From positions 1-52,670 of the forward strand of contig NZNM01000144.1 in NCBI GenBank assembly GCA_002694885.1: 52,670 nucleotides of DNA, given 5' to 3'. Source of the DNA: Opitutaceae bacterium. GTDB taxonomy: Bacteria > Verrucomicrobiota > Verrucomicrobiia > Opitutales > Opitutaceae. The notes under the pieces were generated by a model. The model had not been told where the DNA came from. It saw only the letters and a list, made by a program, of their open reading frames with translations, and made no database searches. Position numbers and translations under genes: made by a program. This document shows positions 4,240 through 45,417 of this stretch, one piece after another. Numbering within the stretch: position 1 is the first letter of the stretch; the number at the start of each line of letters is the position of its first letter.

Positions 4240-4764
4240 ATGAAAATTCTTATTGTCGCTTCTAGTCTGAACCAGGAAAGCAAGAGCCGCCAACTAGCTG
4301 ACGAGCTTGAGTTAGCCTTGAAAGACAAAGACGATTTGGAGATAGATCTGCTCGACTTGAAGGAAGCGGATTTGCCGCTTTGCGATGGGGGAGCGGCCTA
4401 CGAAGATGAGCGTGTCATAGCCGCAAAGGAAAAAGTCGAAGCGGCAGACGGAATCGTTTTCGCATCTCCGATTTATGTCTACAACGTCAACGCGGCGATG
4501 AAGAACTTTGTGGAGCTTACAGGGCATTCCATGAAAGGCAAAGTCGCTGGGTTCCTATGCTCGGCTGGCGGTCGCATGAGCTACATGTCGGTCATGAGCC
4601 TGGCCAATAGCCTGATGCTCGATTTTCGTATGTTCGTTCTGCCGCGATTTGTCTATGTGGCCGCCGAAGACTGGGAAGGCAGCGCTCTCAAGGACGAGAT
4701 AAAGGGACGTATCGGAGAGTTCGCTACGAGCTTTCAGGACTTCGTCGGGCGAATGCTCGATTAG
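4240..4764 (+). CDS. NADPH-dependent FMN reductase-like flavoprotein
   Basis: 174 residues from the ATG at 4240; the open frame reaches 4162, but the flavodoxin-like fold starts at MKILIVASSLNQESKSRQLA, whose first strand and phosphate loop match the FMN_red/NAD(P)H-quinone reductase family. Further family features are DLLDLKEADLPLCDG and the segment GIVFASPIYVYNVNAAMKNF, which lines the FMN. The enzyme should reduce FMN, quinones or similar acceptors with NAD(P)H in the cytoplasm. The substrate cannot be told from sequence. It lies 86 bp upstream of the type II secretion/pilus ATPase gene, with no evident functional link. Confidence 0.82.
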   Translation: MKILIVASSLNQESKSRQLADELELALKDKDDLEIDLLDLKEADLPLCDGGAAYEDERVIAAKEKVEAADGIVFASPIYVYNVNAAMKNFVELTGHSMKGKVAGFLCSAGGRMSYMSVMSLANSLMLDFRMFVLPRFVYVAAEDWEGSALKDEIKGRIGEFATSFQDFVGRMLD

Positions 4765-35787: not shown

Positions 35788-35916
35788 CCCGCTCGAACCC
35801 GTCCGCCGGTGCGGCTCTAGCTAGAACCTGCACCATTTTATTCGCTTTGGGTCTAGTGACCTGAAGTTTTTGACGGGCTTAGCCCACGGGGTGAAGACTG
35901 TTTCTTCGGCTTTTTG

Positions 35917-35979
35917 GTAGTGAGGAACGTCTCGGTCCTCCGTGTTTGAGTTTCGGAGGATCGAGACGATCCTCCTTAC
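35917..35979 (+). repeat. BIME-like inverted repeat, GGAGGACC family (diverged)
   Basis: Left arm GTAG-TGAGGAACGTCTCGG.. and right arm GGAGGATCGAGACGATCC.., the right one ending TTAC, with about 13 bp between. It lies between the convergent regulator and cobW genes. Related to the element at 43864-43930. Confidence 0.7.
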
Positions 35980-36017
35980 CTTTGGGAATGCCCCGTGGCT
36001 TGCTGCGGGGACCTTTA

Positions 36018-37253: not shown

Positions 37254-39485
37254 CTAGAAACGTGTTCTCACTCCCAGCCTAATATTGCGGCCCGGCATTG
37301 GGGCCAAGTCTTTCAAGAAAGAAGTGTTGGGGCGGGCTTCCTCGTCTCCCAAATTATGAGCCGCGGCAAATAGATCGACCGTGACTGACTCAGAAGCGCG
37401 GATACGGTAACGTACATCTGCATTCCAAAGCGTGTAGCTGTCGGTCGGCAAAGCATTGGGGGCCAGGTGAGAAGCCTCGTCGTGCCAGCGTCCCTCTACA
37501 CCGAATAGCCAGTCATTGTTCTGATACTCATAGCGCAACCCCAGGCGTCGTACTGGAATGCGGGGCATGTTGGTGTTCAAGGTTTCATTTGTCGCCCGCG
37601 TTTGATCGTAAATGAGGTCCACGTGCATGGCCTGATCCGCCTCGTCAACAATATGGTAGCGGAGATCGACCTCGAAGCCGTAGAACTTGGCGTCCGCTTT
37701 TGTAGCCCGAAATACATCCAAGCCCTCGGTATCGAAGTCTTCGCCATAAATCGCTTCTACGTCCTCGTGATCGAGGAACTCCAAGTAGATGTAGTTGGCA
37801 AAATCAGAATAGAAGGCGGTGACTTCTCCCGTGATCGCCCCGGCTGTGATCCGGTAGGACAAATCAAGGCTAGTGGAGAATTCTTCGTCGATCGATTCCT
37901 TGCCGATTTCGAACGTTTGGGTGCCAACGTGCGGTCCAAAAGCGTAGATCTCGGAAGCATTGGGAGCCCGTTCCGCGAATACCAGATTGGCGGAAAACGC
38001 GCTGTTTTCATCGACTCGACGCACGAAACCCACGGATCCATTTAGCGTATCGAAACTCCGCTTTTCTTGGCTCGGGTCTTCTGGATCAATATCCACGCTC
38101 TCAATTCTGCCGCCAAACTCCCAAGCGCCCCAGTCCTGATTCAAACGCTCCATTATGAAGAGGCCGTATTGCGTCGTCTCCGAGCTGGGTATGAACGCTT
38201 CTTCACCCGCGGCCGAGAAGTCGTCCACCTTGGCTTGAAAGCCGTAAGCGCCTGTGAAATCACCGATCGGGCTGTGCACGCCGGTGAGGCGCATCTCGTA
38301 GCCATCTCGCTCGTAGGTGGTGCCTTCTTCGTCGCCCTCAAACTCAATGTGGCGGTAGTCGCCGAAGGCCAGGTCCAGCTCTAGGCTGTCTAGAAAATCG
38401 AATGGATCGAGCAATTCGCCCCGCAAGCTGAATCGGGACTGGTCGAGATCAATCGCTACCGATTCCTCCTCGCCGTGCTCGTCTTCATCGTGATGCTCCT
38501 CCTCTTCGTGTTCCTCGCCTTCTTCATGCTCTTCGCCCTCCTCATGACCGTGCTCATCTTCGTGTCCATGAGCATGGGAATGACCGGGAACGCCGTAGTC
38601 GGTTGCGTAGTCGGAGTAGGAAATGGCCAGGCTGCCGTTGTCGCCAAACCAGGCTAGGCCAAGATAGCCCGTACGTGTATCCACAAAGCTGCTTTCCAGA
38701 ACGCCGAACACTTCCTCTTCCTCCTCGTGGCCGTGCTCGTCTTCGTGCTCCTCTCCCTCTTCATGTTCCTCGCCTTCTTCGTGCTCGTCGTGATGCTCTT
38801 CTTCCTCTTCGGCCTCCATCTGATAGATGGATTCGGCGAAGCCAGGAATCTCAAAATCGTTGGATTGACGATCCAGAAAACCCGCGCTCCAGGCGAAGTC
38901 TCCTTCGCCGCCTTGCAAAGCAACCCCATAGGATTGCTCGTCCGAGACGGATCCATAGTAAGCTTCTGCTTGACCTACGATGGGAGCGATGGCCCGCTGC
39001 CTGGGCAAATCTTTGCCCAAAACATTTACCACACCGCCGATAGCGGCATTCCCGTAAAGCAGGGACGCGGGCCCTCGGACCACTTCGATTTCGTCCGCGA
39101 AAAGCGGTTCGATACTGACGCCGTGATCAGGGCTGGTTTGCGAAACATCGAAGGTGTCCACCCCATGACTCAGGATACGTATCCGGTCTCCGTCAAAACC
39201 GCGAATGATGGGTCGCCCGGCACCGGGTCCAAAATAGGAAGAGTGAACTCCCGCTTGACCATCCAAGGTTGCCCCTAGATTAGATTGGGTAGAACGCCGA
39301 AGAGCCTCTCCCGACAACTGGCCAGCCGGAACGACTAGCTCGGCCCTGCTTTCCACGAACGGACTCGCTGTAATCACGAGGGGATCCAAAACCTCGACGT
39401 CTTCCAAGTCGCCACCGACTTGTCCATACCCAAGCTGCCCAGCAGTGACAGCCGCCGCCACCAAAACACATAGTCTAGTTTGCAT
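37254..39485 (-). CDS. TonB-dependent receptor with two His/Glu-rich loops, ZnuD-like
   Basis: 743 residues with a signal peptide (RLCVLVAAAVTAGQLGYG). A plug domain covers about 30-160, with LGATLDGQAGVHSSYFGPGA and RPIIRGFDGDRIRIL and VVRGPASLLYGNAAIGGVVN, then the beta-barrel ending in PGRNIRLGVRTRF. Two loops are packed with His, Glu and Asp: about residues 224-258 (EEEEEHHDEHEEGEEHEEG) and 302-341 (HSHAHGHEDEHGHEEGEE). They share the repeated unit EEGEEHEEGEEHE. Such external loops are known from zinc receptors of the ZnuD type. Two operator sites lie just upstream, the closer only 11 bp before the ATG, and a CobW gene follows, so zinc is the likely cargo. Confidence 0.9.
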   Translation of the reverse strand: MQTRLCVLVAAAVTAGQLGYGQVGGDLEDVEVLDPLVITASPFVESRAELVVPAGQLSGEALRRSTQSNLGATLDGQAGVHSSYFGPGAGRPIIRGFDGDRIRILSHGVDTFDVSQTSPDHGVSIEPLFADEIEVVRGPASLLYGNAAIGGVVNVLGKDLPRQRAIAPIVGQAEAYYGSVSDEQSYGVALQGGEGDFAWSAGFLDRQSNDFEIPGFAESIYQMEAEEEEEHHDEHEEGEEHEEGEEHEDEHGHEEEEEVFGVLESSFVDTRTGYLGLAWFGDNGSLAISYSDYATDYGVPGHSHAHGHEDEHGHEEGEEHEEGEEHEEEEHHDEDEHGEEESVAIDLDQSRFSLRGELLDPFDFLDSLELDLAFGDYRHIEFEGDEEGTTYERDGYEMRLTGVHSPIGDFTGAYGFQAKVDDFSAAGEEAFIPSSETTQYGLFIMERLNQDWGAWEFGGRIESVDIDPEDPSQEKRSFDTLNGSVGFVRRVDENSAFSANLVFAERAPNASEIYAFGPHVGTQTFEIGKESIDEEFSTSLDLSYRITAGAITGEVTAFYSDFANYIYLEFLDHEDVEAIYGEDFDTEGLDVFRATKADAKFYGFEVDLRYHIVDEADQAMHVDLIYDQTRATNETLNTNMPRIPVRRLGLRYEYQNNDWLFGVEGRWHDEASHLAPNALPTDSYTLWNADVRYRIRASESVTVDLFAAAHNLGDEEARPNTSFLKDLAPMPGRNIRLGVRTRF

Positions 39486-41098: not shown

Positions 41099-42229
41099 AT
41101 GTCTGACCAAATCAATGTAGCTCTCGTTGGCCTCGGCTTTGGAGCCGAGTTCATTCCTATCTATCAAAAGCACCCGAATACGACTATCGCCGCCATTTGT
41201 CAGCGAAGCGAGGAATCGCTGAACCAAGTGGGAGACGAATTTGGCATCGAATTGTCCAAGCGCTTCACGTCCTACGAGGAGATGCTGGAAGATCCGAGCA
41301 TCGACGCGGTTCATATCAATACGCCTATCGCTAGCCACGCCCCCCATTCGATCCAGGCGCTGAAGGCCGGCAAGCACGTGGCCTGTACTGTACCCATGGC
41401 GACATCGGTGGACGAGTGTCGGGAGATTTGCGAGCTGGTAGAGGAGACGGGACTCACTTACATGATGATGGAAACGGTGGTTTACAGCCGAGAGTTCCTG
41501 TTCGTGAAAGAGCTTTTCGACAAAGGAGAGCTAGGACGTATCCAATATTTGCAGTCGAGCCACCAGCAGGATATGGATGGCTGGCCTAGCTATTGGGATG
41601 GATTGCCGCCCATGCACTACGCGACGCATTGCGTAGGCCCGGTATTGGCCCTGCAACGCAATCGGGCGGAAACGCTCTCGTGCTTCGGTTCCGGACGCAT
41701 TAACGAGGAGATGATACCCATTCATGGGTCGCCCTTTGCGATCGAATCCTGTCAAGTGACTTTCAAGGATTCCGATGTATCGGCCCGAATTATACGGTCC
41801 TTGTACAACACAGCCCGTCAATATCGGGAAAGCTTCGATGCCTACGGTTCCAAGAAAAGCTACGAATGGCCGCTGGTTGAGGGCGAGGATCCTGTCATTC
41901 ACACGATTGGCAAGCCGGAGCCGGAAATCCCGGAGCGCGTCGAAGTGCCCGACTACGCCCACCTGCTGCCCGAGGAGATCCAGCCTTTTACGGGCCGTGG
42001 CGTCTACGACTCAGACGAAAAGCAGCACTTGTCATTCACCCAAGGCGGTGGCCATGGTGGTTCGCATCCCCATCTGGTGCATGAGTTTGTGAGCGCCTTG
42101 CTAGATAAGCGCTCTCCTTATCCGAATGCCGCCGAATCGGCTAACATCACTTGCGTTGGCATTCTGGCCCATGAGTCGGCTATGGAAGGCGGAGCCCTGA
42201 AGCAAATGCCCGAATTTACGCTGAAGTAG
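41099..42229 (+). CDS. Gfo/Idh/MocA-family oxidoreductase
   Basis: 376 residues. The N-terminal NAD(P) fold has VALVGLGFGAEFIPIYQKH, with IDAVHINTPIASHAPHSIQA and GKHVACTVPMATSVDE, the family's lysine/proline region. The C-terminal domain has the usual beta-sheet. It oxidises or reduces a sugar or inositol derivative in the cytoplasm. The stop codon TAG lies inside the GTAG of a repeat element starting at 42226. It precedes the tandem sulfatases on the same strand by 77 bp. Confidence 0.88.
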   Translation: MSDQINVALVGLGFGAEFIPIYQKHPNTTIAAICQRSEESLNQVGDEFGIELSKRFTSYEEMLEDPSIDAVHINTPIASHAPHSIQALKAGKHVACTVPMATSVDECREICELVEETGLTYMMMETVVYSREFLFVKELFDKGELGRIQYLQSSHQQDMDGWPSYWDGLPPMHYATHCVGPVLALQRNRAETLSCFGSGRINEEMIPIHGSPFAIESCQVTFKDSDVSARIIRSLYNTARQYRESFDAYGSKKSYEWPLVEGEDPVIHTIGKPEPEIPERVEVPDYAHLLPEEIQPFTGRGVYDSDEKQHLSFTQGGGHGGSHPHLVHEFVSALLDKRSPYPNAAESANITCVGILAHESAMEGGALKQMPEFTLK

Positions 42230-42293
42230 CTCACTCGCTTTAGCGTGAGCAAATATAGAACTAACCTGGCTCACGCTGAAGCGAGTGAGCTAC
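42226..42293 (+). repeat. BIME-like inverted repeat, GCTCACTCGCTTTA family
   Basis: GTAG-CTCACTCGCTTTAGCG on the left with its inverted copy ending CTAC on the right, about 18 bp apart. The GTAG contains the stop codon of the preceding dehydrogenase. A relative is at 52343-52403. Confidence 0.85.
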
Positions 42294-42306
42294 GATAATT
42301 AGACTA

Positions 42307-43824
42307 ATGAAATTACACTTAATCCTGCGAGAAACCGTTGTATTGTTTGTATGCTGCTTTGCAATACAATCGGCTGCGGAGACCACGTCGAAGCCAAATA
42401 TCCTCTTCTGCATTTCGGATGATCAGTCTTACCAGCATACGGGAGCTAATGGGGACCCAGTTATCAATACGCCCGTTTTTGATCGTATTGCTAATGAAGG
42501 CCTGCGTTTTACGCATGCGTTTTGCGATGCCCCGACTTGCGGCCCCTCGCGCAGCGCGATTTTAACGGGGCAATCGATATGGCGATTGGAAGAGGCAGGC
42601 AATATCCACAGCACTTTGCCAGCGAAATTCGCTACCTATACGGACGAGCTGCGCAAGGCGGGCTACAAGGTGGGAGCGACTGGCAAGGCATGGAGTCCGG
42701 GACGACTCGAGCCGGGCGGGCGAACGGAAAATCCAGCTGGACCGATCTACGAGGGAAAAACGCTTGAGCCGCCTTTCAGCGCCATGCGTAACACGGACTA
42801 CGCCGGAAACTTTCAGGACTTCATGTCTGAAGTGAGCGAGGACGAGCCCTTTTGCTTCTGGTTAGGAACCAGCGAACCCCATCGTGGCTTCGAAAATGGG
42901 GCAGGTTTGAAAACGGGAAAAGACCTCAGTAAAATCGTCGTGCCCGCAGTGTTTCCCGATAACGAAATTGTCCGCAGCGATATCGCGGATTATCTCGTGG
43001 AGATCGAACACTTCGACATGATGGTGGGACGGGCTATAGCGACTCTGGAAGAACGGGGAATGCTAGACGGCACGATCATTGTAATCACCAGTGATCACGG
43101 TATGCCCTTTCCACGGGCCAAGGCCAGCCTCTATGATTTGGGTTCAAGGATCCCCTTGGCGATTCGCTGGCCGGAGGGGATAGAGAATTCGGGGCGGGTG
43201 GTTGATTCCTTCGTCAATCTGAGCGATCTAGCTCCCACGTTCTTAGAGGCCGCTGGCTTGAAGCCTCCCAGCATGATGAGTGCCCGAAGCATGACGGATA
43301 TTTTCGCAAATAAGGAACGCAAGACGCGTGATGCTGCTTACATCGCTATGGAGCGGCACGACGGTTGTCGCGCGGGCGGAAAAGGTTATCCTTGTCGGGC
43401 GATCCGGACTGAGAATTTCATGTACATCTATAACTTCGAGCCCAGCCGTTGGCCCTCAGGATCTCCGGATGCCGCTGTATGCGCTAGAGCCATACCGTAT
43501 GGAGAAATCGATTCGTCACCTACTAAGACGTTCATGATGGAGAACCGTCATACTCATGGCATTGCGGATCTCGCCTATCTTTCATTTGGCATGCGCCCAG
43601 CTGAGGAGTTGTATGACCTGAAGAAGGATCCGGAACAAATGGTGAATGTAGCAGGAACCACGGAATACGAGTCGATGCGGGCCCAACTTCGGAAGCAGTT
43701 GTTTGCTCAGTTGAGAAAAACCAAGGATCCACGAGTGGTGGGTGGAAAGGTCGATTGGGATTACTATCCGTATTATGGACGTATCCGAACGGAGGGTTGG
43801 ACGGTGGACCCGAAACCGGAATGA
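42307..43824 (+). CDS. Formylglycine sulfatase, heparan N-sulfatase-like (tandem copy 1)
   Basis: 505 residues, with a signal peptide (VVLFVCCFAIQSAA). Metal site ISDDQSYQHTGANGDP; formylglycine site C78-G-P-S-R with SAILTG; IVITSDHGMPFPRAKASLYD for the second half of the metal site. Where most S1 sulfatases have GKWH(L), this one reads TGKAWSPGRLEPGGR, with K127 but no histidine. The overall form resembles heparan-N-sulfatase-type proteins common in planctomycetes and verrucomicrobia. A close paralogue follows after 6 bp, so the two form a tandem duplication within one operon. Sulfate ester or sulfamate as substrate is undecided. Confidence 0.9.
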   Translation: MKLHLILRETVVLFVCCFAIQSAAETTSKPNILFCISDDQSYQHTGANGDPVINTPVFDRIANEGLRFTHAFCDAPTCGPSRSAILTGQSIWRLEEAGNIHSTLPAKFATYTDELRKAGYKVGATGKAWSPGRLEPGGRTENPAGPIYEGKTLEPPFSAMRNTDYAGNFQDFMSEVSEDEPFCFWLGTSEPHRGFENGAGLKTGKDLSKIVVPAVFPDNEIVRSDIADYLVEIEHFDMMVGRAIATLEERGMLDGTIIVITSDHGMPFPRAKASLYDLGSRIPLAIRWPEGIENSGRVVDSFVNLSDLAPTFLEAAGLKPPSMMSARSMTDIFANKERKTRDAAYIAMERHDGCRAGGKGYPCRAIRTENFMYIYNFEPSRWPSGSPDAAVCARAIPYGEIDSSPTKTFMMENRHTHGIADLAYLSFGMRPAEELYDLKKDPEQMVNVAGTTEYESMRAQLRKQLFAQLRKTKDPRVVGGKVDWDYYPYYGRIRTEGWTVDPKPE

Positions 43825-43830
43825 AATAAA

Positions 43831-45417
43831 TTGAAACGATTTCTTGCAGACTTTCTCTTCAGGGCAGGGAGGACCAGCTCGGTCCTCCGAATCGATGGTG
43901 TATACGGAGGACCGAGCCGGTCCTCCCTACCTATTCTACCTTTCGTTTGTCTGCTAGCATCGATTTCATTGGTCGAAGCTCAGGATAGGGCAAACATTCT
44001 CTTTTGCATTTCAGACGACCAGTCTTGGGCCCACACTGGGGCCAATGGCGATCCGGTGGTTAAGACGCCTGCCTTCGATCGTGTAGCAGCGGAGGGACTA
44101 CGCTTTGTCAATTCCTTTTGCGATGCCCCGACCTGCGGCCCATCGCGTAGCGCCATCGTAACCGGACAACACATTTGGCGACTGGAGGAGGCGGCCAATA
44201 TTTGGAGCACTCTGCAGGCTAAATTTGCCACTTACACCGAGGAGCTTCAGAAAGCAGGGTACAAGGTAGGCTCCACTGGTAAAGCTTGGGGACCGGGACG
44301 CTTAGAGCCTGGCGGAAGAACAGAAAATCCCGCGGGAAAGCCTTATGCAGGCAGGACCGTTGAGCTAACTTATAGCGCGATAAGGGATACGGATTACGCG
44401 GGAAATTTCGAGGACTTCATTTCGGAAGTAGGAGAGGGCCAACCTTTCTGTTTTTGGTTAGGAACCAGCGAACCGCACCGTCCCTACGAAAACGGCGCTG
44501 GTATTAAGTCAGGCAAAGATCCTTCCAAGGTAATCGTTCCATCGATCTTTCCAGACAACGATATCGTCCGTAGTGACATTTTGGATTACTATGTAGAAAT
44601 TGAGCACTTTGATACGATGGTCGCGCGGGCCATCGCCATGCTGGAAAAACGGGGCCAATTGGAAAACACGATCGTGGTGGTTACCAGCGACCATGGCATG
44701 CCTTTTCCTAGAGGCAAAGCGACGCTTTATGACGACGGATCACGTGTGCCCTTGGCCATCCGATGGGGAGAAGGTATTAAGAATGGCGGCCGGGTAATTG
44801 ATGCGCCGGTTAACCTCAGCGACTTGGCGCCGACCTTCCTAGAAGCCGCTGGGGTAAATGTTCCGGATATGATGACCGGGCGAAGCATGATGGACCTGTT
44901 TGAAGATAGTCCCACCATGGATCGGCAAGCCGCATTTATCGCGTTCGAACGTCACAGCGGAGCGCGAGCTGGTGGTAAAGGCTACCCCAGTCGCGCTATC
45001 CGGACGAAGGATTACTTGTATATTTACAACTTCGAACCAGATCGCTGGCCAGCCGGCTCTCCAGATCCGGAAGTGTGCAATCGTCTGATTCCATTTGGGG
45101 AATACGATAATTCACCAACGAAGGCCTACATGGTGGAGAACCGCTACAAGCATGGGGTTGCTCATCTGGCTGAGTTATCTTTTGGGAAGCATCCGGCTGA
45201 GGAGTTTTATATAGTCAAAGACGATCCACACCAGATGCGCAATTTGGCGGGAAATTTAAAATACCTGGCCGCTCAAAACGCTTTGCGCCGTCAATTATTC
45301 GATTATCTGGAAAAGACAAAAGACCCCCGAGTAGTAGGGGGTCCGATCGAATGGGATTACTACCCGCATTACGGAAATCGGGCTAATAAGAATTGGAAGG
45401 TGGATGAGGGACCGTAG
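43831..45417 (+). CDS. Formylglycine sulfatase (tandem copy 2) with a repeat element inside its signal peptide
   Basis: 528 residues if read from TTG 43831; no in-frame ATG exists before the mature part. The catalytic part parallels the upstream copy: ISDDQSWAHTGANGDP, C102-G-P-S-R, TGKAWGPGRLEPGGR, VVTSDHGMPFPRGKA. Residues 12-34 (RAGRTSS...PSRSSLP) are encoded by a BIME-like palindrome at 43864-43930. Without these residues, MKRFLADFLF would join PFVCLLASISLVEAQ to give an ordinary signal peptide. The element keeps the frame open, so the gene may still be translated, but export may be impaired or start usage altered. The stop overlaps the next sulfatase start by 14 bp. Confidence 0.85.
   Translation: MKRFLADFLFRAGRTSSVLRIDGVYGGPSRSSLPILPFVCLLASISLVEAQDRANILFCISDDQSWAHTGANGDPVVKTPAFDRVAAEGLRFVNSFCDAPTCGPSRSAIVTGQHIWRLEEAANIWSTLQAKFATYTEELQKAGYKVGSTGKAWGPGRLEPGGRTENPAGKPYAGRTVELTYSAIRDTDYAGNFEDFISEVGEGQPFCFWLGTSEPHRPYENGAGIKSGKDPSKVIVPSIFPDNDIVRSDILDYYVEIEHFDTMVARAIAMLEKRGQLENTIVVVTSDHGMPFPRGKATLYDDGSRVPLAIRWGEGIKNGGRVIDAPVNLSDLAPTFLEAAGVNVPDMMTGRSMMDLFEDSPTMDRQAAFIAFERHSGARAGGKGYPSRAIRTKDYLYIYNFEPDRWPAGSPDPEVCNRLIPFGEYDNSPTKAYMVENRYKHGVAHLAELSFGKHPAEEFYIVKDDPHQMRNLAGNLKYLAAQNALRRQLFDYLEKTKDPRVVGGPIEWDYYPHYGNRANKNWKVDEGP
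43864..43930 (+). repeat. BIME-like inverted repeat inside a coding region, GGAGGACC family
   Basis: Left arm AGGGAGGACCAGCTCGGTCC.. and right arm GGAGGACCGAGCCGGTCC.. match as inverted copies over 22 of 23 bp, separated by 17 bp. The flanks are GCAG and CTAC. It lies within the 5' end of the sulfatase gene at 43831. Confidence 0.9.

Follow-up and report, generated by a model that had tools for sequence, protein, structure and literature searches.

The sulfatase genes and the palindrome in one leader

The window, i.e. the whole stretch of 52,670 nucleotides analysed here, belongs to the genome of a marine Opitutaceae bacterium (G000) and contains a cluster in the order dehydrogenase (41099), S1 (42307), S2 (43831) and S3 (45404). 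The order dehydrogenase-S1-S2 is common to G003, G005, G007 and G010, with S3 next in G005, G007 and G010, which makes it unlikely that contigs were joined chimerically at the repeat. S1 and S2 are tandem sulfatase paralogues, and a palindrome lies in the leader of S2. The features are as follows.

35916 to 35980, no strand assigned: second BIME of the family of the S2 element, intergenic
42307 to 43824, plus strand: sulfatase S1, tandem paralogue without insert, its stop 38 nt upstream of the BIME
43831 to 45417, plus strand: sulfatase S2 (PF00884, 528 aa, TTG start), with the palindrome in its leader and orthologues 74-76% identical
43831 to 43833, plus strand: TTG start codon of S2, 6 nt past the S1 stop
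43863 to 43931, plus strand: BIME made of two GTAG REPs in inverse orientation, with the in-frame reading (R)AGRTSSVLRIDGVYGGPSRSSLP
43864 to 43888, plus strand: left REP unit GCAGGGAGGACCAGCTCGGTCCTCC, whose tag has decayed from GTAG to GCAG
43889 to 43905, plus strand: linker between the REP units, 17 nt
43906 to 43930, minus strand: right REP unit GTAGGGAGGACCGGCTCGGTCCTCC, intact
43933 to 43983, plus strand: rest of the S2 signal peptide, h- and c-region (ILPFVCLLASISLVEAQ), with no ATG, GTG or TTG before the hydrophobic core

The PF00884 match of the S2 open reading frame has an E value of 1e-36. The inverted arms of the palindrome (43863-43892 and 43902-43931, 30 nt each) are 90% complementary, and its units are of the type GTAG-GGAGGACCGGCTCGGTCCTCC. 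The element, about 69 nt long, occupies codons 11-34 of S2 in frame. An earlier note on this DNA had described an in-frame palindrome encoding residues 12-34; this holds, with coordinates amended to 43864-43932. The mRNA hairpin that it foresaw near the start codon is also real: the RNA fold of 43811-43990 has an energy of -74.3 kcal/mol (z -5.5), which none of the shuffled sequences equalled. The stem begins about 35 nt past the start codon; folded on its own, the start region has only weak structure. Stems of this kind are usually opened by elongating ribosomes.

A start-codon scan of the frame bore out that TTG 43831 is the only available start, as the frame has no other ATG, GTG or TTG from its preceding stop (TGA 43822-43824) up to the hydrophobic core. 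In G003 and G007, S2 starts within an ATGA overlapping the S1 stop; the TTG of G000 is found at the same junction. Judged by hydrophobicity and charge, the leader with its insert has an n-region charge of +4, an unchanged core VCLLASISLV and the c-region EAQ. Excision of the palindrome had been said to restore a normal signal sequence; exact removal gives ...FLFR-ILPFVCLL... and not FLF-PFVCLL.

We then compared S2 with its orthologues. Those of G003, G005, G007, G008 and G010 (74-76% identity) have ordinary signal peptides, e.g. MKRIHSVLLSLCVTLLAFTQNAIARP, and lack the stretch, as does the paralogue S1, in agreement with the earlier note. One of the six other orthologues carries it, that of G006, which reads GSVLRSCLRFGGPSRSSLPWLCLLVVYFLCAKSSVARP. 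Its palindrome belongs to the same family, agrees with that of G000 in frame and position, and is not followed by any start codon. As this contig starts within the palindrome, the right arm and the junction with the gene are visible and the left part is unseen. The insertion reading of the earlier note would have failed had every orthologue carried the segment, which is not so. More distant S2 orthologues whose N-terminus could be read (L211, L213-L218) all lack the insert. The dehydrogenase-sulfatase junction of G006 is unassembled; contig C219 (L062) ends just past the dehydrogenase, within two degenerate REP-like units in direct orientation.

A unique recent insertion in the S2 gene of G000 is ruled out as stated, since G006 has the insert too. 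The insertion itself stands, and need not be recent: G006 has its palindrome at the matching codon, so that the two inserts either arose in parallel or descend from an old common one. The dehydrogenase tree places G000 with G008 and G006 with G003; an argument for two insertions based on this tree was dropped because the S2 genes deviate from it. In topology tests on S2, the grouping of G000 with G006 was not rejected (p-AU 0.25), that of G006 with G003 was (p 0.003), and that of G000 with G008 was borderline (p 0.06). A short duplication at the site (CTACCTATT/CTACCT) can account for the 3-codon offset between the two inserts. The linkers are both 17 nt long and share 3 of 17 bases, and the arms are nearly identical despite saturated synonymous sites. 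Two insertions would fit this pattern, as would a single old one whose arms were kept alike by conversion or selection, and we lean slightly towards two.

Copies, location and possible source of the REP family

The unit GGAGGACCGNNNCGGTCCTCC has 116 sites per strand in the 3.68-Mb genome (up to 3 mismatches), and none for the reversed control. Its GTAG-tagged form is present at 86 sites in G000, 120 in the congener G006, and 0-17 in nine other congeners. A set of 89 elements (63 from G000, and 26 from a partial, non-random sample of G006) was classed against codon-usage gene calls, which were simple around the elements. Among these, 75 were intergenic, 4 lay at an ORF edge, and 10 within a called ORF, all in its first 1-63 codons; none of the 89 occupied a central or terminal part of a gene. 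In both genomes, the intragenic copies of the family are found only in N-terminal leaders, and recurrently so. The elements are concentrated close to gene 3' ends (45 of 86 distances were at most 40 nt), and among two-unit elements 104 of 186 frames are open.

In the passages of Di Nocera et al. 2013 (PMC3733652) drawn on here, GTAG REPs are described as 20-30 nt palindromes forming inverted dimers, mostly intergenic and near gene 3' ends, and some, including copies in Opitutus terrae, lie inside ORFs where they encode 20-30 residues; the same paper shows Opitutus to be rich in REPs. The S2 element shares with them, as far as these passages go, the tag, unit size, inverted dimer, 3'-end bias and ORF location. 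It belongs to this class by the usual marks: GTAG ahead of a 20-50 nt palindrome (right unit; the left has decayed to GCAG), inverse units with a short linker (17 nt, against 13-18 nt in most other dimers of the genome), and a high, mostly intergenic copy number (the tagged sites and intergenic fraction given above). Rickettsia palindromic elements are also palindromic repeats in frame in protein genes (PMC10969869), but they measure about 150 nt and place a conserved encoded peptide in unrelated metabolic genes, whereas the Verrucomicrobiota elements of G000 and G006 have units of about 25 nt and a frame that differs by gene; the S2 element, by its length and this varying frame, is not one of them. 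Target-site duplications, as expected of a MITE, were not seen in two empty-site alignments with diverged flanks. With insert-free orthologues at hand, the description as a BIME-like mobile palindrome inserted in a signal-peptide coding region is upheld.

A RAYT (TnpA_REP) transposase acting in trans presumably moved the dimer. G000 has four RAYT-like (Y1_Tnp) genes (L036-L039), with REPs of other families nearby, and 13 further loci were found in relatives. None of the 17 loci (G000, G001, G002, G003 and G006, whose drafts are incomplete) is a cognate RAYT flanked by a REP of the GGAGGACC family. Three of the G000 genes have flanking REPs on both sides and one on a single side only; GTAGCTCACTCGC and GGTAGGGCTGCTTG each flank a different gene on both sides. 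Of the two RAYT-like copies interrupted by an internal stop, one has the ACAGGC family on both sides and the other has GTAGGAGCGGC nearby. REP status is compatible with a missing resident RAYT.

The window holds a BIME of the GTAGCTCACTCGC family as well, at 42226-42293 after the dehydrogenase, whose TAG stop is provided by the GTAG of the element. The remaining copies of this family in the genome are only those flanking the RAYT gene on contig C31. G004 (L008) has a pair at the equivalent position, with a different linker. The family was tried as a control for generality and set aside, having only two pairs in the genome.

Other leader insertions and their empty alleles

Six leader elements have no usable downstream start: those of S2, C78 and C85 in G000, and of C459, S2 and S3 in G006 (the S2 elements of both genomes and that of G006 S3 were not blind finds in the survey). 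All genomes with named records are MAGs. In G006 S3, the only downstream ATG sits inside the hydrophobic core; the element there consists of just one REP unit, again of the S2 family (L047:1670-1703), which the window gene at 45404 lacks.

Two of these leaders could be compared with an empty allele. The C78 gene of G000, whose cytochrome-c-like product contains a CIHCH motif, reads MFGKA-BIME-...VKILIVWFFGIAFSFAQ, where G008 has MLIQERVRILIVGFF...; from start to core it measures 96 nt in G000 versus 18 nt in G008, i.e. 78 extra nt in frame, and the upstream junction is conserved. The two genes are 87% identical (dS 0.39, dN/dS 0.14). The C459 gene of G006 reads MNKASP-BIME-AAFALFVSTSWAQ versus MKHSKLVLFGFLTVSIVSSSWAQ in the insert-free G003, and its start is fixed by an ATGA stop-start overlap conserved between both genomes. 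The G000 orthologue of C459 (L225, G000:C130, at a contig end) has another REP family, CGGCTGCTTAGGGATAAGCAGCCCTACC, in frame at the same place, and G009 (L227, G009:C35) yet another palindrome at this position; no REP was found in the 5' region of the G003 and G007 orthologues. One orthologous gene has three REP families in three species (L225, L194 = G006:C459, L227), in or just before its leader.

A probable seventh case is found on G000 contig C98 (L132, about 4444-4560), where a REP pair stands in frame before a type IV pilin-like leader, FTLFELVVVLS. No ATG, GTG or TTG follows the element in this prepilin-type case, and the gene was missed by the gene caller. In the leader cases with a readable upstream stop (S2, C78, C459 and C98), roughly 18-38 nt separate this stop from the element. 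Four candidates, L109, L142 and L145 (ATG) and L206 (TTG), were rejected as leader insertions, because a usable start follows the element, which is probably untranslated; the first three are among the 10 elements within called ORFs.

How the S2 insertion may be read

We consider it likely that a GTAG REP dimer inserted after the S1 stop is read through in the n-region of S2, and that export is kept. The dimer would have landed shortly past the S1 stop codon, and since the S1-S2 junction has nearly no spacer, this point would fall in the n-region of the S2 signal peptide. Elements gather at gene 3' ends, and in an operon without spacers this zone falls in the leader of the next gene. The insert being stop-free and frame-keeping, ribosomes would read through it and add about 23 residues, net basic, before the unchanged core. 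S2 is most likely still exported, and the added peptide would leave with the cleaved signal peptide. As the n-region is under loose sequence constraint and is cleaved off, in-frame stop-free inserts could survive there.

More generally, n-regions may be a landing and raw-material zone for REPs in Opitutales, where repeated independent in-frame captures, including two S2 insertions and different families at a second orthologous leader, supply translated basic extensions; this wider proposal is tentative, and we hold it a little less probable than its opposite.

The palindrome might instead belong to the 5' UTR, in which case S2 would start non-canonically after it, at ATT 43933 or some later CTG, and have an open frame upstream by accident. 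The four elements followed by a normal start are precedents for such an arrangement, and many N-terminal REPs were argued to be of this kind in the passages of Di Nocera et al. 2013 (PMC3733652) considered here. Yet neither S2 gene of G000 and G006, nor G000 C78, nor G006 C459 has an ATG, GTG or TTG between palindrome and core, and a leader starting from ATT or CTG would have zero basic residues. Moreover, the start before the insert matches the start position in G003 and G007, and that of C459 is fixed by its stop-start overlap. We regard an untranslated palindrome as unlikely, and judging from these start codons and alignments the S2 insert is very probably translated.

Retention of the hairpin for tuning of S1 and S2 expression, by stabilising the S1 mRNA or slowing S2 translation, would agree with the very stable RNA stem, with arms that are conserved between G000 and G006 around differing linkers (3 of 17 bases identical), and with the established regulatory roles of REPs between operon genes. 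Nevertheless the element is missing from five orthologous operons and the S2 start region is weakly structured, which makes this reading improbable as the reason for the insert, even if the hairpin possibly has some effect on S1 mRNA stability or S2 output.

That the insertion damages the leader and S2 is heading for loss, with S1 as a back-up, is the least credible proposal: the TTG start in place of ATG, the longer leader and the adjoining paralogue are in its favour, but the 528-aa ORF is intact with its catalytic motif CxPSR at C102-R106, the hydrophobic core is unchanged, dN is 0.15-0.17 with saturated synonymous sites, the branch is not long, and the carrier in G006 is also intact, with no second copy above 46% identity in that genome. 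Synonymous sites of S2 are saturated even against the sister genome G008, which leaves this gene with no empty allele of low divergence. Evolution of the mature enzyme is not accelerated on the G000 branch, and purifying selection on S2 is strong and intact. The earlier note's suggestion of disabled export is not supported by these data, the h- and c-regions being unchanged as well.

Returning to a translated insert with export kept, long n-regions are compatible with Sec export (PMC2805444). Signal peptides of EspP-type autotransporters have, like S2, a long basic N-terminal extension before a normal targeting signal; these extensions are conserved protein motifs, whereas that of S2 is encoded by a DNA repeat. 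Many N-terminal copies were deemed probably untranslated, and signal peptides go unmentioned, in the passages of Di Nocera et al. 2013 (PMC3733652) used here; unlike these, the copies of G000 and G006 have absent downstream starts and empty alleles in support of translation, and are intragenic in leaders only. A search of the open-access literature found no prior description of REPs in signal peptides, and the restriction to signal peptides, with comparative evidence of translation, appears new.

By definition REPs are extragenic, and those met at gene starts tend to be put down to faulty annotation. The comparative evidence suggests that some are translated, and that the disposable export leader is a part of the protein able to absorb them. 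Such insertions may be a source of new leader sequence, they call for caution in the annotation of start sites in REP-rich genomes, and they offer a testable instance of a selfish DNA repeat turning into protein.

Two minor observations concern the surroundings of S2. Between the sisters G000 and G008, S2 and S3 are far more diverged than the C78 gene (saturation versus a dS of 0.39), which suggests that the sulfatase cluster of G000, G006 and G008 has been exchanged or replaced. Finally, the window encodes at 37254-39485, on the minus strand, a TonB-type receptor in which two long repeats (HEEGEEHEEGEEHEDEHGHEEEEE) are rich in His and Glu and may bind metal.
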